Virus record (IMG/VR): IMGVR_UViG_3300025601_000131
Coordinates: 1 to 23,121 of that record
Length of the DNA stretch: 23,121 nt
Strand: one strand, 5' to 3'
Source: a virus
The stretch's first letter is position 1; the number at the start of each line of letters is the position of its first letter. The translations under genes and the position numbers were made by a program. The notes under the pieces were generated by a model. The model was given only the letters and a program-made list of their open reading frames with translations. It was not told the origin of the DNA and made no database searches. Below, piece after piece: positions 2 to 19,304 of this stretch.

Positions 2-847
2 ATGCCCAGTAAAGCATATTACGAAGCTAATAAAGAAAAATTAAAAGCATATGGTAGAGCATACGGCAAAGCTAATAGAGAAAAATTAACAGCTCATAAA
101 AAAGAATATTGCGAAGTTAATAAAGAAAGAATAAAAGCTTATGAAAAAGCATATCGCGAAGCTAATAGAGAAAAATTAACAGCCCAAACAAAAGCATACC
201 ATGAAGCTAACAAAGAAAAGATAAAAGCATATCGCGAAGCTAATAGAGAAAAAATAAGAATAAAGGCTAAAGCCTATCGTGAAGCTAATAAAGAAAAAAT
301 AAAAGGCTGGTACAAGGCTAATAAAGAAAAAATAAAAGCTTATGAAAAAGCACATTACGAAGCTAATTCAGAAAAAATAAAAGCTCGATCAAAAGCATAC
401 TACGAAGCTAATACAGAAGAGGTCCTTGCTAAAAACAAAGTATACCGCGAAGCTACTAAAGATAAAATAAAAGCGTACCGTAAAGCTAATAGAGAAATAA
501 GAATGGCCCAGAAAAGAGCATGGCACAAAACGAATACAGAAAAAATAAAAGTATATGCTAAAACCTACCGCAAAGATAACAGAGCTATGATGTATACACA
601 TGTTGCAAAAAGAAGGGCATTAAAGATGAATCAGTATGAAAAGTTAAGTGCTGATGATAAATTTGTGATAGAAGAGTGCTATGGGTTAATGCAATTAAGG
701 ACTACAAAAATGGGGTTTGCGTGGCATGTAGATCACATTATCCCTTTGAGCAAAGGGGGTTTACATAAGCCCACTAATTTACAGGTAGTTCCTGCAACAT
801 GGAATTTACAAAAAAATAATAACCACCAGGAGAAATGGATTGGCTAA
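2..847 (+). CDS. HNH endonuclease with long Lys-rich repeat region
   Basis: A 281-aa protein. Residues 6-193 are about 14 copies of a Y-x-E-A-N-x-E-K-I-K-A type unit, very rich in Lys, Glu and Ala and probably helical. The C-terminal ~45 residues form an HNH nuclease core: HVDH at 242-245, then PLSKGG, N259 and the terminal WNLQK (267-271). HNH enzymes cut DNA using a metal-bound beta-beta-alpha fold; in phages they are often free-standing homing-type nucleases. I infer that the basic repeats bind DNA or act as a spacer. The ATG at base 2 is probably the real start because the protein begins MPSKAYYEANKEK, much like its paralogue at 1116, but the ribosome-binding site lies outside the window, so an upstream extension cannot be excluded. 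The HNH assignment is firm; the biological role is not. Confidence 0.85.
   Translation: MPSKAYYEANKEKLKAYGRAYGKANREKLTAHKKEYCEVNKERIKAYEKAYREANREKLTAQTKAYHEANKEKIKAYREANREKIRIKAKAYREANKEKIKGWYKANKEKIKAYEKAHYEANSEKIKARSKAYYEANTEEVLAKNKVYREATKDKIKAYRKANREIRMAQKRAWHKTNTEKIKVYAKTYRKDNRAMMYTHVAKRRALKMNQYEKLSADDKFVIEECYGLMQLRTTKMGFAWHVDHIIPLSKGGLHKPTNLQVVPATWNLQKNNNHQEKWIG
17..580 (+). repeat. Tandem 15/11-residue coding repeats
   Basis: The Asn of the E-A-N unit, or its equivalent, falls at residues 10, 25, 40, 55, 70, 81, 96, 107, 122, 137, 152 (Thr), 163, 178 and 193. Spacings are therefore only 15 or 11 residues (45 or 33 nt). The units have diverged at DNA level but keep the pattern Y-x-(E/K)-A-N-(K/R)-E-K-(I/L)-K-A. 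Confidence 0.85.
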
Positions 848-864
848 AATAAAAAGGGATTGTG

Positions 865-1116
865 ATGGCGGACATTGAACACGAAATATATGATGGTCTA
901 TTAGTAATGGATCACTTTGATGATTGCATTATTGGAGTAGTAAAGGGTATTGATAATGAAGATAAGATTTGTTACAGCTACCAATGTATCATCGCTAAAC
1001 TTATGTGTGATGATGAGATGGAAGAGATTGATGCAATAGAATATTTTGAGTACAACATGATGGGTGCGTATGTAGGAGAAAACACTCCATGCTTTTTATT
1101 TACCGAGGATGATTGA
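865..1116 (+). CDS. Small acidic conserved phage protein of unknown function
   Basis: About 83 aa and strongly acidic, with many Asp/Glu and a C-terminus ending in EDD. It has no membrane segment or signal peptide. Its features are an internal GVVKG...YSYQ strand, a helix containing EYFEYN and the closing G-x-x-TPCF. I recall similar small proteins in phage and bacterial genomes but know no function. A GTG at 862 is also in frame, but the AAGGG at 854-858 fits the ATG at 865 better (6-nt spacer). The gene lies between two HNH genes and overlaps the start of the second one (TGATG). Expression is probably coupled to its neighbours. Confidence 0.7.
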   Translation: MADIEHEIYDGLLVMDHFDDCIIGVVKGIDNEDKICYSYQCIIAKLMCDDEMEEIDAIEYFEYNMMGAYVGENTPCFLFTEDD

Positions 1117-1649
1117 TGCCCTATAAGAATCCTGAAGATAGAAAAGCGTATTGCGAAGCTAATAAAGAAAAAATAGTATCCAATAAAAAAGCTTACCGTG
1201 AAAGAAATAAAGAAAAGATAAAAGCATATGCCAAGGCTTGGCAAAAAGCTAACAAAGAAAAAATGAAAGCTTACTACGAAGTTAATAAAGAAAAAATAAA
1301 AGCAAATGGCAAAGACTGGAAAAAAACTAATAGAGAAAGGGTAAAAACTAGCAACAAAGCTTACTACGAATCTAATAGAGGTGCAGCCTGTGCGCGAGTA
1401 AAAGTATACAAAGCAAAGAAGAAACAAAATAATCTCATCACTACAAAAGGGGATAAACAGTTAGCAAAATGGATATACACTATGGCTTCAAAGCTTACAG
1501 AAACAACAGATATTGTGTGGCATGTAGACCATATTAAACCTTTATCCAAAGGGGGTATGCACTCACTAAATAACTTGCAGATTGCCCCCGCACAATGGAA
1601 TTTACAAAAGAGTAATAACAACGAGGAAAGATGGAATGGCAAAGATTAA
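1116..1649 (+). CDS. HNH endonuclease, second copy with shorter repeat region
   Basis: A 177-aa paralogue of the protein at 2-847. Residues 12-87 carry six copies of the same Lys/Glu-rich unit. A linker follows, then the HNH core: HVDH at 136-139, PLSKGG, NNLQ and WNLQKSN. The two HNH cores are close in sequence while the repeat arrays differ in length, suggesting duplication followed by gain or loss of repeats. I chose ATG 1116, which overlaps the upstream stop by one base and has GAGG at 1105-1108; a TTG at 1113 is in frame but poorly placed. The last 14 bases overlap the next gene. HNH fold is well supported; target site and role (homing, packaging nick, host DNA degradation) are unknown. 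Confidence 0.85.
   Translation: MPYKNPEDRKAYCEANKEKIVSNKKAYRERNKEKIKAYAKAWQKANKEKMKAYYEVNKEKIKANGKDWKKTNRERVKTSNKAYYESNRGAACARVKVYKAKKKQNNLITTKGDKQLAKWIYTMASKLTETTDIVWHVDHIKPLSKGGMHSLNNLQIAPAQWNLQKSNNNEERWNGKD
1149..1376 (+). repeat. Coding repeats of the second HNH gene
   Basis: Six units with the conserved Asn at residues 16, 31, 46, 57, 72 and 87 counted from ATG 1116. The spacings are 15, 15, 11, 15 and 15, the same two-length rule seen in the first HNH gene. Confidence 0.8.
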
Positions 1650-3060: not shown

Positions 3061-4629
3061 ATGAAACTAATTGACAATAAAGCAGTAAAGATTACTGTGC
3101 CTAATGAGGTTGCGGGCTTAATACAAAAGCATATACCGAAGGCGACAGTAGTAGAAACAAGAGAGAACTTATCTGACATCCTAGTATATTGGGGTATCGA
3201 TGAGATGATTAAACTCAACCAATTGGTTACGTTCAAGAAACCATTACCCTCACCTATAACACGAGACTACAAATGGTCTGGACGCTTCCAACCCTTCGAT
3301 CACCAAAAAGTTACCAGTGAATTTCTAAGTACGCATACTAGGGCATTCTGTTTTAACGAGGCCGGTACAGGTAAAACATCTTCGGTACTATGGGCATGCG
3401 ACTATCTTATGAATGAGAAAAAGATTAAGCGTGTACTGGTGGTATGCCCTTTGTCTATCATGACATCTGCTTGGAAGAATGATATTTACAATACGTGTGT
3501 GCATAGGGTACCCGGCGTGGCATATGGTACAGCAGATCAACGAAGACTTATTATAGATAACCCTCAGTATGAGTTTGTTATTATTAATTATGATGGGGTA
3601 AACATTGTTAAAGATGCTATTAAAGAGGCTAACTTTGATTTAGTAGTTATTGATGAGGCCAATGCTTATAAGACAGTGACTACTGCTAGGTGGAAAACAC
3701 TGGCTAAAATACTACGACCTGAGACAAGGCTGTGGATGTTAACAGGTACCCCGGCATCCCAATCTCCTGTAGATGCGTATGGTTTGGCTCGTTTAGTATG
3801 TCCAGATAGAGTGCCTAAATTTTCATCAGCTTGGCGTGACATTGTTATGAAACAGTTAACAAGGTTTAAGTGGGTACCTAAGCCGGGTAGTGAAACTAAA
3901 GTCTTTAACACATTACAACCCGCCATTCGGTTTGCTAAGAATGATTGCTTGGACCTACCCGACGTTATGTATCAGACTAGGATAGTTCCTTTAACAAAAC
4001 AAGTAGAAACTTACTACAACAAACTGAAGAAAGACTTTCTTATTGAAGCAGCGGGAGAAGAGATAAGTGCTGTGAATGCGGCGGCTAACATGACTAAACT
4101 GCTACAGATTTCTGGCGGTGCAGTGTACACCGACGAACATAAAGTAGTCGACTTTGACATTAGTCCTAGACTAAAAGTATTGATGGAGACTGTTGACCAA
4201 ACCAAACATAAAGTATTAGTCTTTGTACCCTACCGACATACCATAGATATTGTTGCTAAGAATCTTAATCAGAACAATATCACTACTTCTATTATCAATG
4301 GAAGTGTATCAGCACACAACCGCACACAGATTATTAAAGAGTTTCAAACTGCTGATGATCCGAGAGTTCTTGTTGTCCAACCTCAATCTGCTTCACATGG
4401 AGTTACCCTTACCCGGGCCGACACGGTAGTATTCTGGTCGCCTGTGATGAGTGTAGAAGTATACCTCCAATGTATTGCGAGGATTGATAGGGTGGGTCAG
4501 AAGAATAAGATGACAGTCGTTCATCTGCAAGGATCAGCAATTGAGAAGAGGATGTATGACATGCTACAAGGCAAGGTAGATAATCATACGAAGTTAGTAG
4601 ATTTATATAGAGAGGAGATAGGACTATGA
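3061..4629 (+). CDS. SNF2-type superfamily 2 DNA helicase/translocase
   Basis: 522 aa with a full two-lobe SF2 architecture. Lobe 1 has a Q-motif-like FQPFDHQK (77-83), Walker A AGTGKT (101-106), motif Ia near VLVVCPLSI (125-133), motif II DEAN (198-201) and motif III TGTP (228-231). Lobe 2 has VLVFVPYR, motif V region SHGVTLTRADTVVFW and motif VI RIDRVGQ (474-480), the RxxRxGQ signature of SNF2 proteins. Such enzymes translocate on double-stranded DNA with ATP and in phages accompany replication and recombination genes. There is no accessory DNA-binding domain, so it is a minimal version. Motif II DEAN rather than DEAH or DEAQ is uncommon. The stop overlaps the next start (ATGA). Confidence 0.9.
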   Translation: MKLIDNKAVKITVPNEVAGLIQKHIPKATVVETRENLSDILVYWGIDEMIKLNQLVTFKKPLPSPITRDYKWSGRFQPFDHQKVTSEFLSTHTRAFCFNEAGTGKTSSVLWACDYLMNEKKIKRVLVVCPLSIMTSAWKNDIYNTCVHRVPGVAYGTADQRRLIIDNPQYEFVIINYDGVNIVKDAIKEANFDLVVIDEANAYKTVTTARWKTLAKILRPETRLWMLTGTPASQSPVDAYGLARLVCPDRVPKFSSAWRDIVMKQLTRFKWVPKPGSETKVFNTLQPAIRFAKNDCLDLPDVMYQTRIVPLTKQVETYYNKLKKDFLIEAAGEEISAVNAAANMTKLLQISGGAVYTDEHKVVDFDISPRLKVLMETVDQTKHKVLVFVPYRHTIDIVAKNLNQNNITTSIINGSVSAHNRTQIIKEFQTADDPRVLVVQPQSASHGVTLTRADTVVFWSPVMSVEVYLQCIARIDRVGQKNKMTVVHLQGSAIEKRMYDMLQGKVDNHTKLVDLYREEIGL

Positions 4630-4907
4630 ATTTAGATGGCATAGACACACAACTAGGAAACAACTTACATTGTTTTCATGTAGCAACAGAAGAAACGCCG
4701 CATCGAGAGTGGATTGATACCCCAGGATGGGGGCCTAAAGAAATAGAGGTACATTTATTTTTTTGGGATGAACATAATATAAATCAGATAAAAGTTTTAA
4801 ATATACAACACAATAAAGGAATAACACTTACCAATTGGTCAAGTGATGAGGGGGCTTCTACGCTTTTAAGAAAAGAGATTGTAAATTTAAGGGGAAAAAA
4901 TAAATGA
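4626..4907 (+). CDS. Unknown 93-aa protein
   Basis: I do not recognise this family. It starts at ATG 4626 inside the helicase stop, with AGGAGA at 4613-4618, and overlaps the next gene by ATGA. It has alternating aromatic and acidic residues, several Trp (WIDTPGWGP, FFWDEH, TNWSSDEG), no Cys pair, no membrane helix and a basic C-terminal tail (LRGKNK). The N-terminal half looks beta-rich. The tight coupling to the helicase and to the following coiled-coil gene suggests a replication-associated role, but that is inference from position alone. Confidence 0.6.
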   Translation: MNLDGIDTQLGNNLHCFHVATEETPHREWIDTPGWGPKEIEVHLFFWDEHNINQIKVLNIQHNKGITLTNWSSDEGASTLLRKEIVNLRGKNK

Positions 4908-6345: not shown

Positions 6346-6377
6346 AAAATGCTCCGCTTAAATCCCGGGGCATTTTT
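6346..6377 (+). terminator. Terminator-like hairpin over the annotated primase-helicase start
   Basis: AAAATGCTCC (6346-6355) pairs with GGGGCATTTT (6367-6376) in a 10-bp stem with one G-U pair and an 11-nt loop, running directly into a T run (6373-6377). The ATG at 6349-6351 lies in the left arm. It could be an intrinsic terminator for the SSB-HTH group, or a translational hairpin hiding the start codon. Confidence 0.45.
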
Positions 6378-9246
6378 AACCTTAAAAGATAGAGAGAAAA
6401 TGTTAAAACAATTCTATGAAAAGGCACTGCCTAATGAGGGCTACTACTGTGTAGCTTATAACATTCCTAATAGTAAAGCCTATGTACATGACTATGCATC
6501 ATCTATAGACGAAGTTGTTGAGTTAATTCAGACACACGTAAAAGAAGAGCGTAATGTTTTTGTAGCGATGAGTACATTCAACGAACAGGACCGGAAGGCT
6601 TCTAAATCTATATTTGTTAAGTCCTTTTATCTTGACCTTGATGTTGGTGAGAGCAAAGATTACCAGACACAGAAAGAGGCCTTAATTGATCTTAGTAACT
6701 TTCTTGAAACTTCTAAGCTACCTATGCCTGCTATTGTTAATAGTGGTAACGGGATACATGCTTACTGGTTCTTAAAAGAACAAATTACTGTTGAAGAATG
6801 GAAACCTTTAGCAACTCAGCTTAAAAATCTATGTGTAGCTGAAGGATTAAAGATAGACTTAGCTATCACTGCAGACTGTGCTCGATTGCTTAGGTGTCCT
6901 AATACAGTTAACTATAAAAAAACTCCACCTAGTCCAACACTCGTAGTAAAAGATGCAGAAGAATATGACTTAAAAGTAATAAAAACGATACTAGACAATG
7001 TAGAAATACCTTTAGAAGAGTTAGTTAAAAAGTCTAACTTTACCGACGAAGAAAAACGAGTGAAGTATGGCAACTACGAGAACCACTTCAAGCCTCTACT
7101 TATTGATAGTATGCAAGAAAACGAAGATGGGTGTGCTCAGATTAAACACTATATAGATAATGCTAAAACTGCTGACGAACCTTTATGGTGGCGCGTGTTA
7201 TCTCTTGCACAAAACTGTGTGGATAGAGACGATGTTATCCATGTTATATCTAAGGACCATGTAGGATATTCCTATGATGAGACAGAAGAGAAAGCAACTT
7301 CAACTGATGGAAAGCCACACACATGTAAAGACTTTAATAATGTTAGCCCAGGTATCTGTACATCGTGCCCACACTGGCAGACTATATCAACACCTATTCA
7401 GTTACATAAGGTAACCGCTAAGGCGGAGCCGGTAGAAGAATCAGTGGAACTGATAGCTATAGAAGGAGAGGTATTACCTGTAATACACAAGAAGAAGAAC
7501 GGGTTACCTCAAACTTTAGATGATAAAGGTTACTGGCTAGGAGCTAAACAGGGCGGTATATTTAAAAGCATTACTACCGTAGATAAAAAAGGTGCTACCC
7601 TTAAAGAAGACTTACTAGTATATGAGTATGATATGTTTGCTATCCGACACCTTAAAAGTAATGCGGATGGTAACTGTCTAGTTATTAATGTAATGCATCC
7701 TCATGACGGTACACTCGAGTTTTTACTGCCTATGAAGTCGGTATATGACCCTACAGAATTAAGAAAGACATTAACGAGCCAAGGTATTTATTATGATTCA
7801 AGACAACAGGAGGAATTAATTATGCGTTATTTTATTGATTGGGCAAAGGATATGCAAAGAAAGAATAAGTATGATGTTATGTATGATCAGATGGGATGGA
7901 ACGAAGATCATAGTTCCTTTGTGGCAGGTAACATAGAAATGTCTAGGGATGGGACAGAAAAGATTACACCTATATCTCCTCTTGCTAGGCCAGTAGCACC
8001 CTTTGTAACTAAGAGTGGAACCTATGAAGGATGGAAAATAGCCGCGCAAAAGCTCAACCAGAACGGTATGGAGATGCATATGTTTACTATGCTATGTGGA
8101 TTTGGTTCTGTGCTTATGACTTTTTCATCTACTAATGGGGTTGCTATATCATTAACAGGAGAATCCGGTGCGGCTAAGACTGGCGCATTAAAAGCAGCGA
8201 TTAGTATATGGGGTGAACCAGAAAACCTATATGTGCAAAACATTACTGCTAACGCTTTACAAGGAAGGTTCTTAACACTTCACAACTTACCTATGGGATT
8301 TGATGAAGTAGGTAATAAAAATCCATACCTTATTTCTGATTTTATATTAGGAGTTTCACAAGGTAAGGCAAAAGTTAAGATGCAAGCATCAACTAATTCT
8401 GAACGTGATTATGAAGCACCTTCATCTTTGATTGCCATCATGACCTCTAACCATTCGTTGATTGATAAACTAAAACAGATTAGGTCTAACCCTAATGGTG
8501 AGGCGGCTAGGTTGATTGAGTTCTCTATGAGAAAGCCTAAATCATTCATTGATAACGCACGACTAGGTAAAGAAATCTTTGATGAGTTTAATGTACATTA
8601 CGGATGGGCAGGTCCTGACTTTATTAGGGCACTGTACAAGTATGGTGATGAAGCAGCTATCAAAGCTAATCTAGGTAAGTGGGAAAACCGATTTGTAGCA
8701 GATTTTGGTAATGATACTGCCTACCGGTTCTACGAGAACTTAGTGGCCGTTACTATGACAGCCGCAGAAATAGTTGTTGATGCAGGTATTTTGGTGATAG
8801 ACATTGAAAGAATCTATAAGTTTATTGTAGGTGAAATGATTAGTATTAAAGATGAAACAGTTAAGATTAATGATGTAGATTATGAGTCTGTTCTAGCAAA
8901 CTATCTTGATTCTAATATAGACAAGGTCCTCGCGTTCTCTGAGGAAGGTAACATGATTAGTGAACCTAGAAACCAATTAGCTATTCGTATAGAACACGCT
9001 AAAGATTATATGTGGATTTCGAAGAAAGAGTTCGACGCATACCTTGCAGAGCTACCTATCAGTACAAAAGAGTTTGTATACCAGATGAAACAGATGGGGG
9101 TAGGGGTAGATGTAGGTGCTAAAATTAAACAACGTATGAATGCCGGGTGGGTAGATGTACAAAAATCTGCTACGGCGGTGTATAGGTTTAAGCTAAGTAC
9201 CATTGGTAAGACATATGAGGTAGAAAAGCTTGCAGCTACACAATGA
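6349..9246 (+). CDS. Primase-helicase (AEP-like primase + DUF927-type P-loop ATPase)
   Basis: 965 aa. The N-terminal part carries primase-polymerase (AEP/RepB-like) signatures: YLDLDVGE with the metal-binding pair D96 and D98, SGNGIHAYW (132-140) and the DLAITADCARLLRCPNT block (170-186). Cysteines at 326, 337 and 340 (CKDF...GICTSC) suggest a zinc site. The C-terminal half is a P-loop ATPase of DUF927/helicase type: Walker A GESGAAKT (604-611), Walker B FDE (651-653) and sensor-1 MTSN (698-701). It should prime and unwind DNA at the phage fork. ATG 6349 gives the longest frame with TAAGG 11 nt upstream, but a hairpin covers it and a promoter would start transcripts there; ATG 6400 (residue 18), preceded by AGAGAG, is a serious alternative and keeps all motifs. 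Confidence 0.85.
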   Translation: MLRLNPGAFLTLKDREKMLKQFYEKALPNEGYYCVAYNIPNSKAYVHDYASSIDEVVELIQTHVKEERNVFVAMSTFNEQDRKASKSIFVKSFYLDLDVGESKDYQTQKEALIDLSNFLETSKLPMPAIVNSGNGIHAYWFLKEQITVEEWKPLATQLKNLCVAEGLKIDLAITADCARLLRCPNTVNYKKTPPSPTLVVKDAEEYDLKVIKTILDNVEIPLEELVKKSNFTDEEKRVKYGNYENHFKPLLIDSMQENEDGCAQIKHYIDNAKTADEPLWWRVLSLAQNCVDRDDVIHVISKDHVGYSYDETEEKATSTDGKPHTCKDFNNVSPGICTSCPHWQTISTPIQLHKVTAKAEPVEESVELIAIEGEVLPVIHKKKNGLPQTLDDKGYWLGAKQGGIFKSITTVDKKGATLKEDLLVYEYDMFAIRHLKSNADGNCLVINVMHPHDGTLEFLLPMKSVYDPTELRKTLTSQGIYYDSRQQEELIMRYFIDWAKDMQRKNKYDVMYDQMGWNEDHSSFVAGNIEMSRDGTEKITPISPLARPVAPFVTKSGTYEGWKIAAQKLNQNGMEMHMFTMLCGFGSVLMTFSSTNGVAISLTGESGAAKTGALKAAISIWGEPENLYVQNITANALQGRFLTLHNLPMGFDEVGNKNPYLISDFILGVSQGKAKVKMQASTNSERDYEAPSSLIAIMTSNHSLIDKLKQIRSNPNGEAARLIEFSMRKPKSFIDNARLGKEIFDEFNVHYGWAGPDFIRALYKYGDEAAIKANLGKWENRFVADFGNDTAYRFYENLVAVTMTAAEIVVDAGILVIDIERIYKFIVGEMISIKDETVKINDVDYESVLANYLDSNIDKVLAFSEEGNMISEPRNQLAIRIEHAKDYMWISKKEFDAYLAELPISTKEFVYQMKQMGVGVDVGAKIKQRMNAGWVDVQKSATAVYRFKLSTIGKTYEVEKLAATQ

Positions 9247-9430
9247 TCCGGAGTGGCTCTTCCCCTATGAGATGATGCAAGTAGGGGATAGTTTTTTTAT
9301 TCCGACACTTAAGAGTGCACCACTAATCTATTCAATTGAAACCGCAGCGAAACGTGCTAAGGTAAAAGTTAAAACGTATGCGGTAGTAGAGGATGACTTG
9401 ATGGGTGTACGTACGTGGCGTATAGGCTAA
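9230..9430 (+). CDS. Small conserved phage protein with VGDSFF(I/V)P motif, TTG start
   Basis: 66 aa, starting at TTG 9230 within the end of the primase-helicase gene, with GAGG at 9217-9220. An ATG at 9272 would begin just before VGDSFF, but the preceding WLFPYEM also looks conserved (PW.EM-VGDSF in related small phage proteins I recall), favouring the TTG. The motif VGDSFFIP is followed by a helix (IETAAKRAKVKVK) and a C-terminal GVRTWRIG. The family is common next to phage replication genes; its function is unknown and a DNA-binding role is only a guess. Its stop overlaps the convergent gene by 4 bp and the gene contains a terminator-like hairpin. Confidence 0.7.
   Translation: MQLHNDPEWLFPYEMMQVGDSFFIPTLKSAPLIYSIETAAKRAKVKVKTYAVVEDDLMGVRTWRIG
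9261..9298 (+). terminator. Intrinsic-terminator-like hairpin inside the last left-arm gene
   Basis: TCCCCTAT (9261-9268) pairs with GTAGGGGA (9281-9288), giving seven Watson-Crick pairs plus one closing G-U pair and a 12-nt loop. TAG and then seven T (9292-9298) follow. This GC-rich stem with a T tract is the best terminator candidate in the window and would end rightward transcripts about 130 nt before the convergent gene. Confidence 0.5.
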
Positions 9431-12400
9431 TCAGGTATTCCATAAATATCATTTAATGATTCGTCGTATTTTTTACCAATGAATACACCATTTACAGAAT
9501 CTTTTAATCTAGCGTCCCTTGCTTTCATAGACCTTTGTATAGTCTTTCTTGATAGCTGAAAACCTTTTGGAGCTTTGCTATTAAACCTATCAATATCTCG
9601 TTGAATATCTTCTACACCATCCTCATCTCCTGCTTGTCTGGCTAGGTAATATTTTAATAATAGTTTAGACTTCCGAGCTAACAGTTTTCTTTCTGGGCCT
9701 TTTAATGCATTAGCTTTAGTATAAGCTTCTGCTAACTCAATGTTACTAAACCCTACTATTTGCATGAAGGACTCGTATACACTTGGATCACCTTCTATAA
9801 TAGGCACACCATATTTGTTAGTCATGCCGTCAGTATTATATCTAACAGTCTTAAGGGCATTTCCTAGGAAAGTAGGTAACACTCTTTCAGCTCCTCGACC
9901 TACGTCGCCATCTGCAATCATACCAACGCCTTCCGTAAATCTACGAAGTATTCCATATCCAGGACCACCTAATACTTCCATCATATAAGCCGACGCACCT
10001 ATTTTTTCTAATCTAGCTGGGTCTTCTCTAAATGCTAAGTCTCTAAAACCTGTTCGTTGAGATATGTCTATACCAAGTAGTGCACTTAAAGGACCTCGAA
10101 AGGCTAAGTCTCCCACTGCTGCATTAACATATGTATGTGGTTCAAATGGCTCATCGTCATCATCTAATAACAATGAAGCTAATACGGTGGCTCCTCCATA
10201 CAATGGCATACCTTGAATTCCTGCCATTAAGAAAGAATACCCATAGACACCTATCAATTGTTTTGCTGCAATGGCACGAGTTTCTTTATCTGCCTCTGTT
10301 TTAGGTTTTGCATTAAACACATCATTAAATAATTTACTTACTAAATAGATCTGTGCCTGAGCAAATCGTTTAAAGACGAAAGCTACTTTACCAATACCGT
10401 CTTGGAACATGCTAGGACCTACTTCAGGTAACGCGTGAGAATGGACTTTACTGGTAAGCTCAATAGCTTTTTGTATAGCGTCTGTTTCCGAAGCTCCTTT
10501 CGATCTTGCTAAATTAAATGCAGCAATTAAAGTAATCTCACGGTTAATTCGTTCAGAGTTTTGAAACACATACCCTATTCCTGCCTCAACTTTTGATTTA
10601 ATTTTTAATCCACTACCCACTTCCTGACCTAAGTTTTTTTGTAGTTCGGTTATTTCGTACCCTATACCCCGACGTAACGCGGCCGTTTCTTCTGCCCTTG
10701 TAAATAAATTGTGGTACTTACCCCCTTCTTTGAATAACTTAGCATTTTTTCCGGTGTAGGTTTTCTCACCTGTTTTTTCATTAATGGTAAAAGGAGCAGA
10801 TGTTCTATCAGGAAGGAACCCTCTATTCTGCTCAAACCCGCCAGCTCCATATAGTTTCATTGCATCAAATAAAGCTTTTTGTGAAGAATCAAACCCATAC
10901 TCACCCTGTAAAAAAGGTAATACAATAAGGGGGATTTGCGTTAAGTTAACAATAGCTGAAGATATATTACCACCAATGTACCATACATAACTTAAATATG
11001 CTGGCATAGCCGCCCACCCTTTTGCTACTGGGTTAAGATAAAAAGGTAAGCTTTTAATAGTATCGGCACCTATTGCTCGTATTAAAGCACTGTCAGAGTT
11101 AGAAGCTTCCTTACTAATTATATCTGATGTGTTAACTATTTTATTATTATACTTTGCATTCGCTATAGAGCTTACTATCTTAGGTGCTGTACTTGCATAA
11201 GCAAATAAAATATCCTCTTCATAACCCGGTATACCTTTACGATGTGCTTCTTGGTTTCTTAGTGACTGTTCAGGAAATAAAGATAGATACTGTTCTTCAA
11301 TATTTTCAATTGTTAGTTTTTTTGCCTCATCACTTAATTTAGGGTCATTATTAATCTTTGCTTTTAGCCGTTGAACAAATGCTGCTGGTGGGGCCCCACG
11401 TATTTCAGCTCTTTGTGATTGTGCAAAATCTTCAAAGTTTGTGGCGCCTTCTTGACGTAATTGTTCTTTTTTCTTTTTCCTTAAGAATGGTGATTCTGCA
11501 GAAGCTTTACCTTCTTCCCCATCTTTAGTTACATACTTAAACCAATAATCACCTTTACGTACCATAGGTAAATAATAGTTAAGTGGTACAAACTCTTCGC
11601 GTAAATTTGCTTCAGCTTCCGGATAAGCCTCAATCATTGTATCTAAAAGTGCTTTGTATTTATTTCTTAGGTCGTTAACAATCTGATTACCTAAATCTTT
11701 TAGGTCTTGTGGTAGCCGTTCGTACCGCTCTACAAACTCAGCTGCTTTAGGATTTTCTTGCAATAGCTGTTGTCTAGCTACTTCGTCTTTAATAATAGCT
11801 TCGGGGTCTATATTTGCTCTAGATAGTTCAAGTAATACACGGTTCCATTCTTTAACAAGCTGTTTACCTCTTGGGGTTTGAGCATACTTTTTACTTATAA
11901 GGTCTTCTGCATACCGCAACACAACAGATACTTGTTCTCTACCTTGTTTAATTATGTTTGCTTTGAGTTCAAGAAAAGATTGAAGTTCTCGTAGGCCAGA
12001 TATTTGGTCGCCAAACAACTCAATCTTATTAGGAATAGATAAAAACCCCATGTATATCCGCGCAGCTTTATCTTTTAATGTAGATAAAAATGATACCAGT
12101 TCTCTACCAGTACCCGACTGTACTACAGGCATATTCAGAATAGAGTTGCCTAGTTTGTCAAACTGTTTCATTGCAAAGCTTTTGGATGGTACGCCACCAA
12201 GATCGACTATGTTAATGTCTGATGCTGCTTTTTCTTCAGCTGTTAATTCTTTTGCAGGTACTACCTCTGGTATTTCTTCATCTTTTTCTAATACACCTTT
12301 TTTGTTTTCATCTTTAATAGGGTTAGTATTTTTAGGTAATCTTATGTTAAGGGCTTCTCCCTGTACCTTCGCCGCCGCTTCTCTAGGCTTGGCGGGCTGT

Positions 12401-15400
12401 ATCTTACTTTTAAGCTCCATGATAGTGTCGGTTACTTCTTCTTTTGAGAACTGAATGTCTTGTGACACTTCAGGGTTAACATTAAAATCTATCATTTCTC
12501 TAATAGCAGCTTCATTTTCAGGCTCTATAGAAATTATATTATCTATAACAGTATTTTCTTCAAATTCAAATCTGGCTTCTTGTTTTACAAATTTTTTGCC
12601 AGCTATATTAGGGACAGCTACTCTTTTTGGAAATCTTGTGTCGGTGTTGTCTGGGGCTATTTCTCTTCGAGGACCTATCATAAGCACCGGCATTTGTGTG
12701 ACGCCCAGTCGTTGTAGAGCCCTTGCTCTATGCCTGCCTTCATGGCCTGTAATTTTTGCCCATCCTCTCTCAGGTGACTCAAATGTTAGATTGGGCACAT
12801 CGTATGGGTTGCCCATATAAGCGCCATCTTTATCGAATTGATTAACCCATTTTACAACGGCTTCAGAATTACCTTCAAAATATTCAGCAATTTGTGCATC
12901 TAAAGATTTAATTGATTCCGCCTCTGTCCCTATAAGTTTTTGTGAGGCTAAATCTAAAAATTGTTGAGGCGACATTGTAGCTACGTAATAGGTTCCCTGC
13001 TTAGCGTAATTTGATGCCGTATTGTTATTGTTTAATTCTTCTATTAGTTTAGTTATTCTTTCAGGTAGCCATCCTGCAATAGTTTTTATTTCTTTCTTAG
13101 ACATCTGTACAGCCGCTGTACTTGATGTCTGTCCTCTAGTACTAGTAGCCTCTGCTAAGGAAACTCTCAGAGAGTTCAAGATCATGTCTTGGATGTCTGC
13201 ATCGCTAAACTTGTTAACGTCGTACAAGCCAAGCCTGCGTAAGAAGTTTTTCACTGCGCCTACTATGCGTCTAAACAACGAGTTGTTAGGGGCACGTTCA
13301 CCTAGCTTAGCCATGACCTCTTGTAAGAAGGGAGTACTGTCTACCGTAAGTTCTGGATAGAGGCGTTGCACTTCATCAAAGATTGCCTGCACCTCAGCGT
13401 TTTGTTTTCTTAATGTTTTAAGGCGGTTGAGTAGCGGGATGTAATCTTTACCTACCATACGCTCTAACCCGTAATGCTCACCTATTTCGTGCAGTAAGAT
13501 ACGACGCGCCTGGCCTTTCTGTATACGGTTAGCTACTATATAAGAGGTTTGTGTTTTAGGGGCGTAAGCACCATTAGCTGTAGAAGACATTTTAATATTG
13601 GCAGGCAATTGATCTACGCTATTCACGATGACTAACTTGCCGCTCTCTATCATTCTGTTCACGCCAGGTCCAAACTCTTGGACCAACTCTGCGGTTACGG
13701 TTTCTGTAGTTTGTCCGGTGCCTTCTGTTTCAACTCGTGATTCTTGAGTAGCTAGGTAGTCAGCTTTTTCTTTTCGTAAAGCTCTAACTCGGTTGGCTAT
13801 ATAAGAAGGAATCTTACGGTTGGGTTCTTGGTTTAGGTAACTCTGCACTTCAAATTCTGCTTGCGCTAATCGTGACTCTATGTCCGCCAATTGTGTATCA
13901 GTTCGTGACTCTTGTGTTTCTTGAGGTGGAGGAGTTATACCAAATTCAACTTCTAACTGTTCTACATAATTTAAAGCCATTGCAGGATCTTCGTCAACAA
14001 TATTATCTAGCTCGGTAATAATATCTGACTGAGGATCATCTATTTTAATACGTGCTTTAAGTGCATTTATTCTTTGTGTTAGTGAACGAGGCTCTCCGCT
14101 TGTTCCGCTTTCAACTGTTCCAGCAACATTTGGATCGACCACCACTGGAGATCCGTCAGTTGGGATAGCGCTCTCGGTAGGGATGCTGTCGGGTACTCCA
14201 ATGCTATCATTGCTAACTCCAGCTGTTCCAGCGGTATATTCTGCAGTTCTGTTTCTAGCATTTTCTATCTCCTTCCTTAACTTAGGTAGAGCTTTTTTAA
14301 GGTTTCCAAACTTTGTAATTGCTTCTACATTATTATCCGTTTTTGCTTTAGTAAGCATAGCTTGTGCTTGTTTACCAAAGTCTGCTAATTCTTTTGAAGA
14401 AAAAGGTCTTTCAGTAAAATAGTTAACTAATCCTTGGTCTACTGTGTCGGCCGTAATACCTGCACTTTCTAACATAGCAGGAGTAATGACTACTTCATCA
14501 GGGTTTACTTTATTAGCTATGTTTTGTTTACTATTGGCTAATTTCGCATCAGTTTCTGCAGTTCTTCCTAATGCTTTAGCTTTAGTAATTTCACTACGTA
14601 ATTTTTTTAAATCATTTCTTATTTGTTTTCTTTCATTTTCATTATACCCGCCAAAGTATGTATCTAAATCTTTCTCCATAACTTGAGTAATACTTTTTTC
14701 GTCGAGTAGCTGGGTGTCTAAATCTTTCTGAAGTTGTTCAACTTTTGCTTGCTGAGCTAATACGTTAGCTGCTTCTTGATCTCTAGCTTCTGTTGAGGGC
14801 TGTGGTTCTATTACTGCTTCTGTTGTTGTAGTCGCTGTCTGTGTAGTAGCCACAGGAGTTGTTACTGTAGTGTCTACTAGCTTAGTTTCTTCTATAATCT
14901 CTTCTTGTTTTTCTGGAGATGCTTTTTTAGTTAATGCTTTTTCTCTAAGATGTTCTGGTATAGAAGCTACACCCTTGAATGTACCACCAGCAACAGCACC
15001 TTTTATACCAGCTTCTAACATACGATCAAAGTCATCAGAATCAAAGATAACTGAATGGCCTTGCACAAACTTCTCCGCTGCAATACTAACGGCCTCTTGT
15101 GTAGCCTCAGTCAATCCTTCGGTACCAAGTCCACCTAATATATTAGCTGTAGCACGACGAGCAAGTCCGGGTTGCATACCTGACTTCTGTAGTATCTCAG
15201 TAACAACTGATGCTCTACCAGGCTTACTAAAGCTTTTCATAATACTAGTAGGTAGGATGCTATCAAGAGAAGCATTAACAATCCCTGCAAGAGAGGCTGC
15301 TAGAGGTTCAAAGTCCCCTGTCTGCTCGTAGATATTTTGGAATACTTCGGGAGCATTGAGAGCATAAGAACCTAAAAATACACCGGCGGCTTGCCCCTTT

Positions 15401-15972
15401 GCCTTACTTTTATTGATGTCTGATAGAATCTTTTTTGCGGCTCTAGCTGAGGCTTGTTCTGATATTTGTTTTTTAAATTCTTTTTTAGTTAATGCTTCGG
15501 TTGCTTTCTTCGCTGCAGTTTTCGCTGCTATACCTCCAGCAACACCACCAACACCGCCGGTACCTATGATACCAAATAGATTAGGGATTTGTTCAAAGGC
15601 TGTTTCTAATACAAACTTTCCAGCATCTCCTACACCTTTAACGTCTTTATAGGAAGGGTATTGAGGTGCCATAGTTTTAGCAATTGTAGCTTCACTAGCT
15701 TGGGCTTCTTGCATTTGCTTTTTAGCATATTCATCAAAACCTAATGCACTTGCACCCATTGCGGGTAACACGTCACCAATAGTAGAGCCAATACGTTTCG
15801 CACCACGACCAAAACCTTTGCTAACGATTTCGCCTAGTGAGTAATCTCTTTCTAGCTCAGGAGTATATAGTTGCTCCGTCGCAGTTCTTATCACTTCATC
15901 TTGGGAGAGGCCATCAGGTCCTTCAAAGCTATGGATTTTACCATCAGGGCTCGCTACATCATATATAGCCAT
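9427..15972 (-). CDS. Giant polyvalent internal virion protein (zincin-like, ParB-like, LPD38-like)
   Basis: 2181 aa. The N-terminus (MAIYDVASPDG, then EGPDGLSQDEVI) is typical of large phage internal proteins. A Gly/Ala-rich hydrophobic patch at ~125-155 may interact with membranes. Long Gln/Glu/Lys-rich helical stretches follow. Residues 828-833 read HEIGEH, with E885 downstream in QEVMAKLGE: the HExxxH layout I recall for the metallopeptidase domain of polyvalent proteins. GHEGRHRARA (1076-1085) is a ParB-like motif. From ~1280 on are helical regions, hydrophobic segments at ~1658-1695 and ~1905-1930, and a C-terminal block (~1790-2150) resembling LPD38. Such proteins are packaged and ejected with the DNA, where they may form a conduit and act on host targets. 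AGGAGCT precedes the ATG. No frameshift seen. Confidence 0.8.
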   Translation of the reverse strand: MAIYDVASPDGKIHSFEGPDGLSQDEVIRTATEQLYTPELERDYSLGEIVSKGFGRGAKRIGSTIGDVLPAMGASALGFDEYAKKQMQEAQASEATIAKTMAPQYPSYKDVKGVGDAGKFVLETAFEQIPNLFGIIGTGGVGGVAGGIAAKTAAKKATEALTKKEFKKQISEQASARAAKKILSDINKSKAKGQAAGVFLGSYALNAPEVFQNIYEQTGDFEPLAASLAGIVNASLDSILPTSIMKSFSKPGRASVVTEILQKSGMQPGLARRATANILGGLGTEGLTEATQEAVSIAAEKFVQGHSVIFDSDDFDRMLEAGIKGAVAGGTFKGVASIPEHLREKALTKKASPEKQEEIIEETKLVDTTVTTPVATTQTATTTTEAVIEPQPSTEARDQEAANVLAQQAKVEQLQKDLDTQLLDEKSITQVMEKDLDTYFGGYNENERKQIRNDLKKLRSEITKAKALGRTAETDAKLANSKQNIANKVNPDEVVITPAMLESAGITADTVDQGLVNYFTERPFSSKELADFGKQAQAMLTKAKTDNNVEAITKFGNLKKALPKLRKEIENARNRTAEYTAGTAGVSNDSIGVPDSIPTESAIPTDGSPVVVDPNVAGTVESGTSGEPRSLTQRINALKARIKIDDPQSDIITELDNIVDEDPAMALNYVEQLEVEFGITPPPQETQESRTDTQLADIESRLAQAEFEVQSYLNQEPNRKIPSYIANRVRALRKEKADYLATQESRVETEGTGQTTETVTAELVQEFGPGVNRMIESGKLVIVNSVDQLPANIKMSSTANGAYAPKTQTSYIVANRIQKGQARRILLHEIGEHYGLERMVGKDYIPLLNRLKTLRKQNAEVQAIFDEVQRLYPELTVDSTPFLQEVMAKLGERAPNNSLFRRIVGAVKNFLRRLGLYDVNKFSDADIQDMILNSLRVSLAEATSTRGQTSSTAAVQMSKKEIKTIAGWLPERITKLIEELNNNNTASNYAKQGTYYVATMSPQQFLDLASQKLIGTEAESIKSLDAQIAEYFEGNSEAVVKWVNQFDKDGAYMGNPYDVPNLTFESPERGWAKITGHEGRHRARALQRLGVTQMPVLMIGPRREIAPDNTDTRFPKRVAVPNIAGKKFVKQEARFEFEENTVIDNIISIEPENEAAIREMIDFNVNPEVSQDIQFSKEEVTDTIMELKSKIQPAKPREAAAKVQGEALNIRLPKNTNPIKDENKKGVLEKDEEIPEVVPAKELTAEEKAASDINIVDLGGVPSKSFAMKQFDKLGNSILNMPVVQSGTGRELVSFLSTLKDKAARIYMGFLSIPNKIELFGDQISGLRELQSFLELKANIIKQGREQVSVVLRYAEDLISKKYAQTPRGKQLVKEWNRVLLELSRANIDPEAIIKDEVARQQLLQENPKAAEFVERYERLPQDLKDLGNQIVNDLRNKYKALLDTMIEAYPEAEANLREEFVPLNYYLPMVRKGDYWFKYVTKDGEEGKASAESPFLRKKKKEQLRQEGATNFEDFAQSQRAEIRGAPPAAFVQRLKAKINNDPKLSDEAKKLTIENIEEQYLSLFPEQSLRNQEAHRKGIPGYEEDILFAYASTAPKIVSSIANAKYNNKIVNTSDIISKEASNSDSALIRAIGADTIKSLPFYLNPVAKGWAAMPAYLSYVWYIGGNISSAIVNLTQIPLIVLPFLQGEYGFDSSQKALFDAMKLYGAGGFEQNRGFLPDRTSAPFTINEKTGEKTYTGKNAKLFKEGGKYHNLFTRAEETAALRRGIGYEITELQKNLGQEVGSGLKIKSKVEAGIGYVFQNSERINREITLIAAFNLARSKGASETDAIQKAIELTSKVHSHALPEVGPSMFQDGIGKVAFVFKRFAQAQIYLVSKLFNDVFNAKPKTEADKETRAIAAKQLIGVYGYSFLMAGIQGMPLYGGATVLASLLLDDDDEPFEPHTYVNAAVGDLAFRGPLSALLGIDISQRTGFRDLAFREDPARLEKIGASAYMMEVLGGPGYGILRRFTEGVGMIADGDVGRGAERVLPTFLGNALKTVRYNTDGMTNKYGVPIIEGDPSVYESFMQIVGFSNIELAEAYTKANALKGPERKLLARKSKLLLKYYLARQAGDEDGVEDIQRDIDRFNSKAPKGFQLSRKTIQRSMKARDARLKDSVNGVFIGKKYDESLNDIYGIPD

Positions 15973-15984
15973 TAAGAGCTCCTA

Positions 15985-17595
15985 TTATCTTGAACCTACA
16001 TATGTAAGACCACCACGTTGTGTGCCAGCTGATAGTGCTTTTGCTGCAGCATTATCTAATACTTGTTGTTTAGCCGCTGCATAGTTAGGTTGATTTACTA
16101 CATCTTTACCTTTTGATTCTATCATACCTTTTTCCCAATTAGCTACTTCTAATAGAACTTGTTCATTTTCAGTTGCATCTAATCTATCTCCTGGATCAGC
16201 CATCTGTTTTAATGCTACTTTTAGCTGCATATCTTGTTGAGCTAATTGAAGTTTCATAGCTCGAGTATCTTCAAATTGTTTACTGTCCATACCGTATTGT
16301 ACCGCAGCTAATTGCTCAGCTCTTTCAGCTTGACGTAGTTGTATAGCGGTATCAAATTGTTGTTCTTCTAACGCTCTTCGTTCTTTTTCAGATGCAGCAT
16401 AGGATTCAATACCTCTAGTTGCTCCTGATGCAATATTAGTTAAAGCGTTTTGATCTTGACCTGCAGCTATTGCCAGTCCTGCTTCTGTTAATGCCATCCA
16501 CGGAGCTATCTCTGCTTGTCTATCAGCTGACGCATCCATTTTTTTCCTTTTTTCAGCTAACATATCATTATATGTATCATCGCCCATGAGGGATTTAAAC
16601 TCTGCTATCCTGTCTGCCATAGTAACTTCTTTAGCTGGAGCAGCTGGAGGTTGTTGATTAGCTAAGTTCTTTTGCACTTCTGCTTCTAGGGCTGATTTTT
16701 TAGCTTTTTCTTGAACATCAGAACTTCCTTCCCAATACTTATCCTCTTGTTCTTTAAGATACCTTTTGTTTGCTATGTCTTGTTGCGTATATTCGCTGTA
16801 TGGTTTTTGGTCTAATTTTTCTAACTCTATCGCGTAAGGGGATTTAAACTGTTTCTTTAACTGTTCTGTTTGTTGTCGTTGATCTGCAGCAAATAGTGGA
16901 GGAGCTGCTCTTTTTTGTGCTTCTGTAAAAGACTCAAATGCTTCGTTTCCACCGGGTAAATCTTCAAAGAAAAACTGTCCGGCTTCTGCTATTTCTGTTG
17001 GCCGTGTGACTCCGCTAAGATTAGGGTTTCTTCCACGTAAGTTGTCAACAAGACCGCCGGGAGCGTATCCCATTATGCCTGCCATTTCTTCAGGACTATA
17101 TCTTTCAGCTGCTTGTACTTCTCCTGGCCACATACCACCTACAATAGGGCCAGCAAATTTACCCATAAATAACCCAGCTGCATCTAATCCAGGACTGACG
17201 TAGTCATCAACAACTATATCAAACATGTCTCGCTCTTCACCTACAATACCACCCTCTGCGTAGTTACCTACATTAGGTGCAGGTAAGTTAGCTATGCCGG
17301 TTTCCGTGATAGTTTCAGACTCTGACATGACTTCTGGTTGTGGCATTTGTGGAGCTGACATACTATTAGTTAAAGCACCAATACCCATTTGTGGAGTAGC
17401 TTTGGCTACAATTTCTTCTGATACGGTTTCAGTAGGGGTAGCTTGCGCTTGATACTTTGCTCGCATCTGTTCTCTACGTTGAAGTTCACCAAGTGCTAAA
17501 TATGTAGGGACGTCAGGGGTAGGTCGTTCTACATATCCCACTAACGATTGATCATCTACACCTTTTAATCTGTCTTGTACCTGAATAATATTCAT
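15985..17595 (-). CDS. Putative internal virion/structural protein with YAxGGxV motifs
   Basis: 536 aa. The N-terminus contains DVPTYLALGELQRREQMR (28-45), a helix I recall at the start of phage internal proteins. YAEGGIV (112-118) and YAPGGLV (177-183) repeat a short motif that also occurs in the 484-aa protein at 19304-20758. A moderately hydrophobic Gly/Pro/Met stretch (~135-160) lies between them. The C-terminal half is Gln/Ala/Glu-rich and helical (~320-510), likely a coiled coil. It lies 12 nt upstream of the giant polyvalent gene and 3 nt after the 428-aa gene, with SD-like GGTGGG at 17602-17607. By position and composition I infer a minor capsid-internal or ejection protein; no enzyme motif is visible. 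Confidence 0.6.
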   Translation of the reverse strand: MNIIQVQDRLKGVDDQSLVGYVERPTPDVPTYLALGELQRREQMRAKYQAQATPTETVSEEIVAKATPQMGIGALTNSMSAPQMPQPEVMSESETITETGIANLPAPNVGNYAEGGIVGEERDMFDIVVDDYVSPGLDAAGLFMGKFAGPIVGGMWPGEVQAAERYSPEEMAGIMGYAPGGLVDNLRGRNPNLSGVTRPTEIAEAGQFFFEDLPGGNEAFESFTEAQKRAAPPLFAADQRQQTEQLKKQFKSPYAIELEKLDQKPYSEYTQQDIANKRYLKEQEDKYWEGSSDVQEKAKKSALEAEVQKNLANQQPPAAPAKEVTMADRIAEFKSLMGDDTYNDMLAEKRKKMDASADRQAEIAPWMALTEAGLAIAAGQDQNALTNIASGATRGIESYAASEKERRALEEQQFDTAIQLRQAERAEQLAAVQYGMDSKQFEDTRAMKLQLAQQDMQLKVALKQMADPGDRLDATENEQVLLEVANWEKGMIESKGKDVVNQPNYAAAKQQVLDNAAAKALSAGTQRGGLTYVGSR

Positions 17596-17598
17596 ATG

Positions 17599-18885
17599 TT
17601 ACCCACCTAATACATTATATAAGCCTAGACCTGCTAGCCCTAAACCACCAATTTGAGAAGCCATGCTTGGAGCTGGCGCATACTGTGTCTGTGTTGAACC
17701 TAATGCACCCGCTGTACCACGTAGGATGTTTGACTGGAACTCAAGAGCCCGTCTTTCAGCATCTTGATTTTCCATAAACTGTTGATAAGCAATATTTAAT
17801 TCTTCTTGCGACATAGCTTGTTGCTCAGCGCCTGTTGCAGCTTGAGCTTGAAGTCTTTCTAACTCAGTCGCTTGATCTGCTGCTCCAATTGTAGCTTGTT
17901 GCCCAGCTCCTGCCATCTGAGCTTGTAACCCAGCAAGACCAATATCTTTTTGTAAACCCGCACCATACTGATCGCCTTGTTGCTGTAGTTTTCTTCGGTC
18001 CATTTCTGCTTGAAGAGTTCTTTCTTCGGCTGTCATGCCCGCAGCTCTATCTCTTTCAAACTGTGACTGCGCATTGAGGAAAGATTTTTCTTGTCCTTGT
18101 GCCCTTAAATCTGCTATCAATGCCCTAGTCTGAGCATCTGCCTCACCTGTCATTAAAGCCTCACGCCCACTCCCAAATGTACCTCGACCTATAGAGCTCA
18201 TTGCGTTAGCATTTTTTTGTATATCTGCTTGTTTTTTAGCTTCTCTAATAGCTGCATCAGTAACATTAGTTTGATAAGGACTCATGTATGTAGCGGCAGC
18301 TGTTGCATCAAACGTGCCCGGTGTAGTCATACCTAACGATTCTACTGTTCCTGGAGTGTATCCTAATGCCGAACCAATACCCCCTGCAGCTGTTCTACTA
18401 GTGCCAATGGCATCAGCTATATTTGTTTGTGCTAAATCAAACTCACCTCTTGGGCTCATACCTGCTACATCAGTTTGAACACGCTCTTGTAAGTCAGTAA
18501 ATCCAGCTACTCTATCTCCAGCATAGGGAGTGTCAGTTTTAACCCCGGTAACATTACCAGCCGCATCAGTAGTATATGTTTGCTTACCTGATTGTTTTAA
18601 TAGTTCTTCATAGAAGGGCTTAGCATATTCAGGAAGGTCAGAAGTATAAGTAGTGTTTTCTTGAGGAGCACCACCACCACCACCACCACCTTTGCCTTTA
18701 AACTCTACAAGACCTGTGCGAGGATTAATAGTGCCTGCACCGCCGTGAGCTTTTAAGAGAGCTACTTCCATAGAGTTGACGTGAGCTAATGTAGTGTCAC
18801 CACCATCACCCATAGCTGCAATGTCTGCATACAGGTGTTTGATTAGCCATACTTTAATTTTATTTGGTATTAGTTTTAACAACAT
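17599..18885 (-). CDS. Putative virion protein, Gly-rich N-terminus and Gln/Ala-rich helical body
   Basis: 428 aa. The first ~20 residues (MLLKLIPNKIKVWLIKHLY) are a basic amphipathic or membrane-seeking helix. MGDGGDTTLAHVN (25-37) and GGAGTINPRTGLVEF (48-62) follow, the latter a signature I recall in aquatic phage structural proteins, then seven Gly (66-72). The rest (~140-400) is Ala/Gln/Glu/Arg-rich and helical, ending in a hydrophobic Gly-Leu tail. GGAGTG at 18891-18896, overlapping the upstream stop, is the SD. A role as an internal or ejection protein is inferred from its neighbours; there is no catalytic motif. Confidence 0.6.
   Translation of the reverse strand: MLLKLIPNKIKVWLIKHLYADIAAMGDGGDTTLAHVNSMEVALLKAHGGAGTINPRTGLVEFKGKGGGGGGGAPQENTTYTSDLPEYAKPFYEELLKQSGKQTYTTDAAGNVTGVKTDTPYAGDRVAGFTDLQERVQTDVAGMSPRGEFDLAQTNIADAIGTSRTAAGGIGSALGYTPGTVESLGMTTPGTFDATAAATYMSPYQTNVTDAAIREAKKQADIQKNANAMSSIGRGTFGSGREALMTGEADAQTRALIADLRAQGQEKSFLNAQSQFERDRAAGMTAEERTLQAEMDRRKLQQQGDQYGAGLQKDIGLAGLQAQMAGAGQQATIGAADQATELERLQAQAATGAEQQAMSQEELNIAYQQFMENQDAERRALEFQSNILRGTAGALGSTQTQYAPAPSMASQIGGLGLAGLGLYNVLGG
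18670..18690. repeat. (ACC)7 trinucleotide run
   Basis: Seven perfect ACC units on the + strand encode most of the seven-Gly stretch of the 428-aa virion protein. Changes in copy number would keep the reading frame and only alter linker length. Confidence 0.8.
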
Positions 18886-18890
18886 TTATA

Positions 18891-19304
18891 TCACTCCAAT
18901 GGTAACTCGTAAAACACGAGTCTTTTTATATATCCTTGTTTCTTCCACATCTTTTCCCACCCGGGTCTGCCGTAGGATTCTATTTTACTGCAACCTGTGT
19001 CTTTTGCGAACTGTTGTAGTTTAGGGTATCCGTCAGGTAACCATTCGTTAAAATCTTTTCCTCCGGTAAAATGAAGTACTAGGGTTTTTGTCTGGGGGTA
19101 TATTAATACCTCTGTTACCCAAAATCCATGAATACCTTCGTCATCAAAAGCAATCCACAATTGTTGATCTTTAGTAAGAAGACCTTGTAACATATCTTCT
19201 GCGGTAAATCTGCCATAAGTATACTTGGCACACCGTTCTGCAAACCCTTTTATACTATCCCAAACTACGGGAATATGTTCTCTAGGAACAAGTGATGTCT
19301 TCAT
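18891..19304 (-). CDS. GNAT-like acyltransferase fold protein in the virion gene cluster
   Basis: 137 aa. It shows a GNAT-like order: an N-terminal helix pair (REHIPVVWDSIKGFAER), strands QLWIAFDDEGIHGFWVTEVL and TLVLHFTGG, a helix (YPKLQQFAKDTGC), then the strand KIESYGRPGWEKMWKKQGY. The final GRPGWEKM..KQGY resembles the terminal part of GNAT folds and of T7-like small virion-cluster proteins annotated as acyltransferase-like. The usual acetyl-CoA loop (Q/R-x-x-G-x-G/A) is not evident, so it may not bind acetyl-CoA. Start and upstream stop overlap as TAATG. Its role inside a structural operon is unknown: modifying a virion or host protein, or a purely structural use. Confidence 0.6.
   Translation of the reverse strand: MKTSLVPREHIPVVWDSIKGFAERCAKYTYGRFTAEDMLQGLLTKDQQLWIAFDDEGIHGFWVTEVLIYPQTKTLVLHFTGGKDFNEWLPDGYPKLQQFAKDTGCSKIESYGRPGWEKMWKKQGYIKRLVFYELPLE

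Follow-up and report, generated by a model that had tools for sequence, protein, structure and literature searches.

The giant open reading frame in the window, an IMG/VR record of 23,121 nucleotides that is itself a fragment, encodes a protein of a known class, the polyvalent proteins, and the last ~390 residues of this protein are homologous to internal virion protein D of the Zobellviridae. Most likely, the protein is packed in the shell of an uncultivated short-tailed phage and injected with the DNA. We infer delivery with the DNA from homology and gene order, in agreement with an earlier note that had been made from the sequence alone. The link between the C-terminal module (C-module) and internal virion proteins was not found in the openly licensed literature and may be the part that a specialist would not expect.

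The reading frame at 9427-15972 is intact on the minus strand and codes for 2181 amino acids; the plus-strand frame across the same interval is riddled with stops. The protein recurs with 99.9% identity in a second IMG/VR contig, L001, indicating that the frame is not an assembly artefact. The earlier note had the coordinates, the length and the residue numbers right and left the strand unstated, and HEIGEH, Glu885 and GHEGRHRARA do lie in a single intact frame as it described. Its assignment to the polyvalent proteins also holds. Such proteins carry at least two distinct conflict- or virion-type domains in one polypeptide and are encoded beside late virion genes; here a zincin-like domain, a ParB-like domain and an NF032893 domain are found in one chain.

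The genomic neighbourhood places the gene in the late arm, where the earlier note had put it. Upstream on the same strand are, in order, the 536-aa gene, the 428-aa ejection protein homologue, the 137-aa gene, a 484-aa gene and the virion structural genes. This cassette, including the phrog_4287 homologue, is present in the same order in almost all loci that carry the N-terminal module (N-module) and have enough upstream sequence. On the other side, the primase/helicase-like gene faces the giant gene convergently, an arrangement shared by 34 of the 36 relatives that have 2.5 kb or more of downstream sequence, and beyond this gene lie genes for an SSB/annealing protein, a SNF2-type helicase and a PD-(D/E)XK nuclease. 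No terminator was detected between the convergent arms at 9000-9700, and terminase and portal are absent from the 23-kb window. The 137-aa gene at 18891-19304 resembles an acetyltransferase by eye only; it gave no Pfam match and no BLAST match to P12053L gp44, and this assignment was not confirmed. Single genes in two relatives, L026 and L045, match the 428-aa gene of the cassette as well as the 536-aa one and may be fusions of two ejection-type proteins. In another (L002:137-1215), two adjacent late-arm genes match a 'DNA endonuclease V' PHROG, and the first also matches a 2OG-Fe(II) oxygenase PHROG. The window itself also contains two HNH endonuclease genes, at 2-847 (+) and 1113-1649 (+), whose 3' ends are 74% alike; in both, long tandem repeats of the EANKEKIKAY type, with units of 11 and 15 aa, precede the HNH domain.

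Table 1. Features of the giant gene and its neighbours, in positions of the window
Feature	Residues	Position	Strand	Basis or remark
Whole ORF, 2181 aa, giant polyvalent, ejection-type protein		9427..15972	-	last gene of late arm
N-module	1-350	14923..15972	-	common to about 35 distinct IMG/VR proteins
Linker, cargo slot	351-762	13687..14922	-	relatives carry other cargo there
Zincin-like metallopeptidase domain, HExxxH type	763-936	13165..13686	-	conservation and model
HEIGEH; predicted ligands H828 and H833, predicted general base E829	828-833	13474..13491	-
Glu885, predicted third metal ligand, on next helix	885	13318..13320	-
ParB/Srx-like domain core	990-1110	12643..13005	-	profiles, model, fold search
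GHEGRHRARA, aligned to SbnI DGxHR active-site turn	1076-1085	12718..12747	-
Linker	1111-1270	12163..12642	-	partly pLDDT < 50
C-module, NCBIfam NF032893 'tail-700' / PLxRFG	1271-2174	9451..12162	-	model match 1466-2169
C-module part homologous to Zobellviridae internal virion protein D C-terminus	~1750-2139	9556..10725	-
965-aa DUF927 primase/helicase-like gene, convergent with giant gene		6349..9246	+
536-aa gene, adjoining, conserved late-cassette member		15985..17595	-
428-aa DNA ejection protein homologue, conserved cassette member		17599..18885	-	phrog_4287, E 4e-12
137-aa cassette gene		18891..19304	-

The zincin-like domain is supported by both conservation and a confident model. All 13 zincin rows of alignment A8 have H828, E829, H833 and E885, and the zincin columns are aligned in every version of the alignment; an HExxxH motif followed by a downstream Glu is characteristic of the HEXXXH clade. 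The AlphaFold2 model (mf545db84ff80), with pLDDT mostly 84-97, contains three strands (46-49, 67-70 and 75-79 in model numbering), an N-terminal helix (22-33) and two ligand-bearing helices, 88-123 with H94, E95 and H99 and 146-159 with E151. This three-stranded sheet with an N-terminal helix and two helices holding the motif and the Glu is the fold of the clade. The earlier note would have given up the domain if His828, Glu829 and His833 were placed away from a metal site; in the model a single high-confidence helix carries all three, and E885 is on the helix that follows. The zincin region has no Pfam match at E <= 1, and zincin chains (anthrax lethal factor) are among the Foldseek matches at an E of only about 0.85. 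HExxxH forms occur in ten members of the N-module set, and HExxHA in most of the others. The sequence HEGRH (1077-1081), inside GHEGRHR, fits HExxH by chance and was rejected as a second zincin.

The ParB-like part is supported at the level of the fold. In the model, helix 1077-1088 is flanked by strands 1061-1064 and 1094-1099, and confidence in this region is moderate. The motif, present in 23 of 23 rows of alignment A7, opens a helix between two strands, as does the Gx(H)R-type turn of ParB/Srx proteins, and is not located in the disordered loop that the earlier note had named as a reason for doubt. The best PDB profile match is SbnI, of the ParB/Srx fold, with the motif in register and a weak E of 0.27; in the fold search, sulfiredoxin chains are the highest-probability matches (prob 0.38, weak E of 0.63). 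Each match is weak alone, and the two agree with each other on a ParB/Srx fold. Pfam ParB_N (E 0.069) and a ParB-like PHROG (E 1.3e-5) each match only 1 of the 23 members, and no Pfam model covers the domain family. A DdrB-like ParB was considered and rejected, as the family profile scores 3.9 bits on P1 DdrB, outside the ParB motif of that protein.

The GHEGRHRA motif heads a conserved domain family with about 95 distinct matches in the loci collected, a count that is not independent because most of those contigs were themselves collected with a scan for this motif; the conservation flanking it on both sides does not depend on that scan. In the first alignment (A6) the ParB rows were out of register; its replacement, A8, leaves out row L050, and its motifs were checked one at a time. 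Since the choice of rows was guided by the expected motifs, A8 cannot serve as independent evidence for the ParB register. The domain follows the zincin in the giant protein, L070 and L088 and precedes it in L005, L123 and L150, indicating that its position is mobile. An IRWSEQ-DP-FDY-WP block is missing from the ParB-like domains located after the zincin (12628-12990 (-) in the window, L070 and L088) and is conserved in other members. Without the IRWSEQ-DP-FDY block, the ParB domain of the giant protein may be altered in function.

The loss of this block is one of the observations that would fit two inactive, purely structural domains: a zincin retained as a conserved folding or packing unit, a role that C1 may have in N4 vRNAP, and a ParB-like domain in decay. 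N4 vRNAP, which also contains a zincin, is packaged uncut (PMC5512222), so that self-cleavage is not a given, and descriptions of its C1 domain are confined to structure (PMC12633501). All 13 diverse sequences nevertheless keep the three ligands and the general base, including the extra residue of HExxxH, and the ParB motif retains its EGRHR core. We consider inactive domains unlikely, though with a real minority chance of being right.

The N-module is shared at 36-47% identity among seven proteins. It occurs in 50 IMG/VR loci, of which about 35 are distinct, and has no convincing match in a collection of 50,697 cultured-phage records. A relationship to the N-terminus of N4 vRNAP was suggested by a PHROG match (E 1e-8) but was rejected, as direct profiles against nine N4-like proteins score at about control level. 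The comparison of the N-module with the profile of Zobellviridae internal virion protein D also scores at control level. Most N-module proteins also have a zincin and a C-module, and the content between varies: the cargo in relatives includes ART-PolyVal, ParB, LPD39, LPD1 and helicase domains (by Pfam, ART-PolyVal, LPD1 and helicase in the inserts, and LPD39 in L005). The linkers of the giant protein, roughly 350-780 and 1110-1270, have no recognised domain in Pfam or NCBIfam, as the earlier note had said, and the predicted model falls below pLDDT 50 at residues ~1109-1144 and 1244-1299. The C-terminus can be exchanged too. In L070, the zincin and ParB domains are ~51% identical to those of the giant protein, but the chain ends in LPD38, not PLxRFG; L006-L008 likewise keep the N-module and end in LPD38. 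The PLxRFG and LPD38 C-modules are thus interchangeable. One related protein of more than 3644 aa (L050:10004-20935) has an N-module and two zincin motifs, HEWHH and HEAIGH.

Nearly all members with the N-module carry a zincin whatever the cargo, usually near the C-module. This constancy favours a processing role over a host target. Zincins in polyvalent proteins have been proposed to process their own chain, and the HEXXXH form and ParB-MPTase fusions have already been described among them (PMC5512222). We suggest that the predicted peptidase probably cuts the giant protein itself. The earlier note had instead proposed cleavage of a host protein, for which no evidence was found; self-processing agrees better with the layout and with what has been argued in print. 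A closely related scheme makes the zincin an injected effector that cleaves a host protein, and the ParB-like domain a nuclease against host DNA. It draws on the view that MPTase effectors are possible in polyvalent proteins (PMC5512222) and on the ADP-ribosyltransferases, which modify proteins, among the cargo of relatives. The near-constant presence and placement of the zincin argue more for general processing than for a host-specific target, and we regard this scheme as unlikely.

The C-terminus belongs to NF032893: the model matches with 354.8 bits (cut-off 100; E=1e-105) over 679 of its 681 positions, and there are about 40 matches to the C-module in the loci collected. The earlier note had called this region LPD38-like, which is the wrong family, as Pfam gives no match at E <= 1. 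Profile-profile comparison of LPD38 (PF18857) with the C-module gives a probability of 62 and a score of 48.7, versus 29.1 for the reversed control, which suggests from sequence profiles that the two may be remotely related. The same note had described the C-terminal third as membrane-prone. One stretch of 19 residues, 1670-1688, does pass a Kyte-Doolittle mean threshold of 1.5, and it is the only one in that third, so that this description holds weakly and for that stretch alone.

The model of the C-module is mostly helical (pTM 0.71). A PDB fold search gave no match, with a library that may not include the N4 C-terminal domain. Among predicted viral proteins (BFVD, searched with Foldseek) there are 84 matches at E <= 0.001, including internal virion protein D of roseophage CRP-4 and gp42 of Celeribacter phage P12053L; these two match with a probability of 1.00 and an E of about 4e-7, but with TM-scores of 0.36-0.38. 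P12053L gp42 itself matches phrog_12003 'internal virion protein'. A profile of internal virion protein D was then built from six proteins (P12053L, ICBM2, CRP-5, CRP-4, CW02 and T5S1). Its hhalign comparison with the C-module gives a probability of 97.3, an E of 1.8e-11 and a score of 109.6 over 353 columns, compared with scores of 21-22 and E near 0.3 for reversed-alignment controls. HMMER searches in both directions agree, with E of 7e-5 to 1e-3 (Z = 40,000). Because the family was chosen on structure and tested afterwards on sequence, the two lines of evidence are largely independent. The homology does not span the whole protein and is limited to these ~353 columns. Neither HExxH nor HExxxH occurs in the internal virion protein D relatives, indicating that the peptidase is an extra and does not belong to the core. 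The C-module was also considered as a homologue of N4 C2, which was rejected at the level of sequence (profile score 21.8 versus 19-22 for reversed controls), though a structural relation may exist. We found no virion proteomics of PLxRFG or Zobellviridae proteins in the openly licensed literature.

The C-module also occurs outside the viral records. A contig of the Solimonas marina genome contains a 3297-aa frame (L197:3932-13825) with the same zincin type and C-module, probably in a prophage, and two ~2.17 Mb 'Neisseria gonorrhoeae plasmids', NZ_CP119140.1 and NZ_CP119142.1, which are chromosome-sized, each have an unannotated C-module match.

A role mainly in shielding incoming DNA from restriction by binding, like the Dar proteins of phage P1, is very unlikely: PLxRFG proteins are often annotated as antirestriction, and the C-module aligns with the terminal part of phrog_10089 'DarB-like antirestriction' (E 4.9e-71), but this match covers the shared C-module only (profile 4248-4632 of 4647), not the methylase-helicase that gives DarB its name, and P1 DdrB, the ParB-bearing Dar protein, is dissimilar to the giant protein. 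The 'DarB-like' name spreads through the shared C-terminal tail. Nothing found here bears out the suggestion of the earlier note that the protein protects incoming DNA.

Based on the domain identities, the conserved metal ligands, the shared ends with exchanged cargo, the gene order and the C-module homology, all of which were computed here, the reading that we find reasonably probable is a giant ejection protein of a short-tailed phage: polyvalent, packed in the capsid, injected, and fitted with swappable cargo. The N-module and the C-terminal PLxRFG module would form a conserved delivery chassis and the middle a slot for differing enzymes, the payload here being the ParB/Srx-like domain beside the HExxxH zincin. 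The protein would be packed together with the ejection proteins encoded just upstream and would be threaded into the cell before the DNA or together with it. There, the zincin would cut the polypeptide within the flexible linkers, and the freed ParB-like domain could act on DNA or nucleotides at the start of infection.

More tentatively, and with somewhat less than an even chance, PLxRFG/tail-700 and, more remotely, LPD38 may be the C-modules of a general chassis for ejection that arose from internal virion proteins, in which uncultivated podovirus-like phages plug different enzymes between fixed N- and C-modules and the zincin frees them after delivery. If so, the position of a cargo in the chain could be what allows it to be recognised, or exchanged. 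The layout of fixed ends and a variable middle gives a testable rule: anything between the N-module and the C-module would be injected cargo. Many large PLxRFG-tailed phage proteins are labelled 'unknown' or 'DarB-like antirestriction', and the link to internal virion protein D offers them a testable role in packaging and ejection; the 'DarB-like' label calls for caution, as it is often based on the shared tail alone.

Like described polyvalent proteins (PMC5512222), the giant protein joins several unrelated domains around a zincin MPTase hub, includes ParB and is encoded among late virion genes; the available part of that source does not explicitly describe an N-module, an HExxxH zincin, a non-DdrB ParB-like domain and PLxRFG together. 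Known NF032893 PLxRFG/tail-700 proteins, such as the Lastavirus PLxRFG protein (495 kDa) and VPAG_00062 of Vibrio phage douglas 12A4, have the same C-module, far over the cut-off, and the Vibrio phage protein also has a related zincin; their N-terminal parts differ from that of the giant protein. LPD38 is the C-module of the N-module sister proteins L006-L008 and takes the place of PLxRFG there, whereas the giant protein has no Pfam match to it and a profile-profile probability of only 62. N4 vRNAP follows the same plan of an N-terminal domain, an enzyme, a zincin (C1) and a large helical C-terminus (C2) (PMC12633501), and its gene has the same place at the convergence of the arms. Its enzyme is an RNA polymerase; Pfam finds vRNAP domains in an N4-like protein and none in the giant protein. 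Since neither N- nor C-terminal homology can be demonstrated by profiles, N4 vRNAP is an analogue only. The Zobellviridae internal virion protein D (P12053L gp42, CRP-4, ICBM2, CW02 gp40) has no zincin motif and no detected N-module and is shorter (1240-1490 aa versus 2181), but shares the C-terminal homology, and its gene lies in the late arm beside internal virion genes, with convergent arms, as here. In P12053L, too, the arms converge and the late arm encodes a large internal virion protein; the published annotation lists internal virion proteins B and D and a GNAT in this region (PMC6775973).
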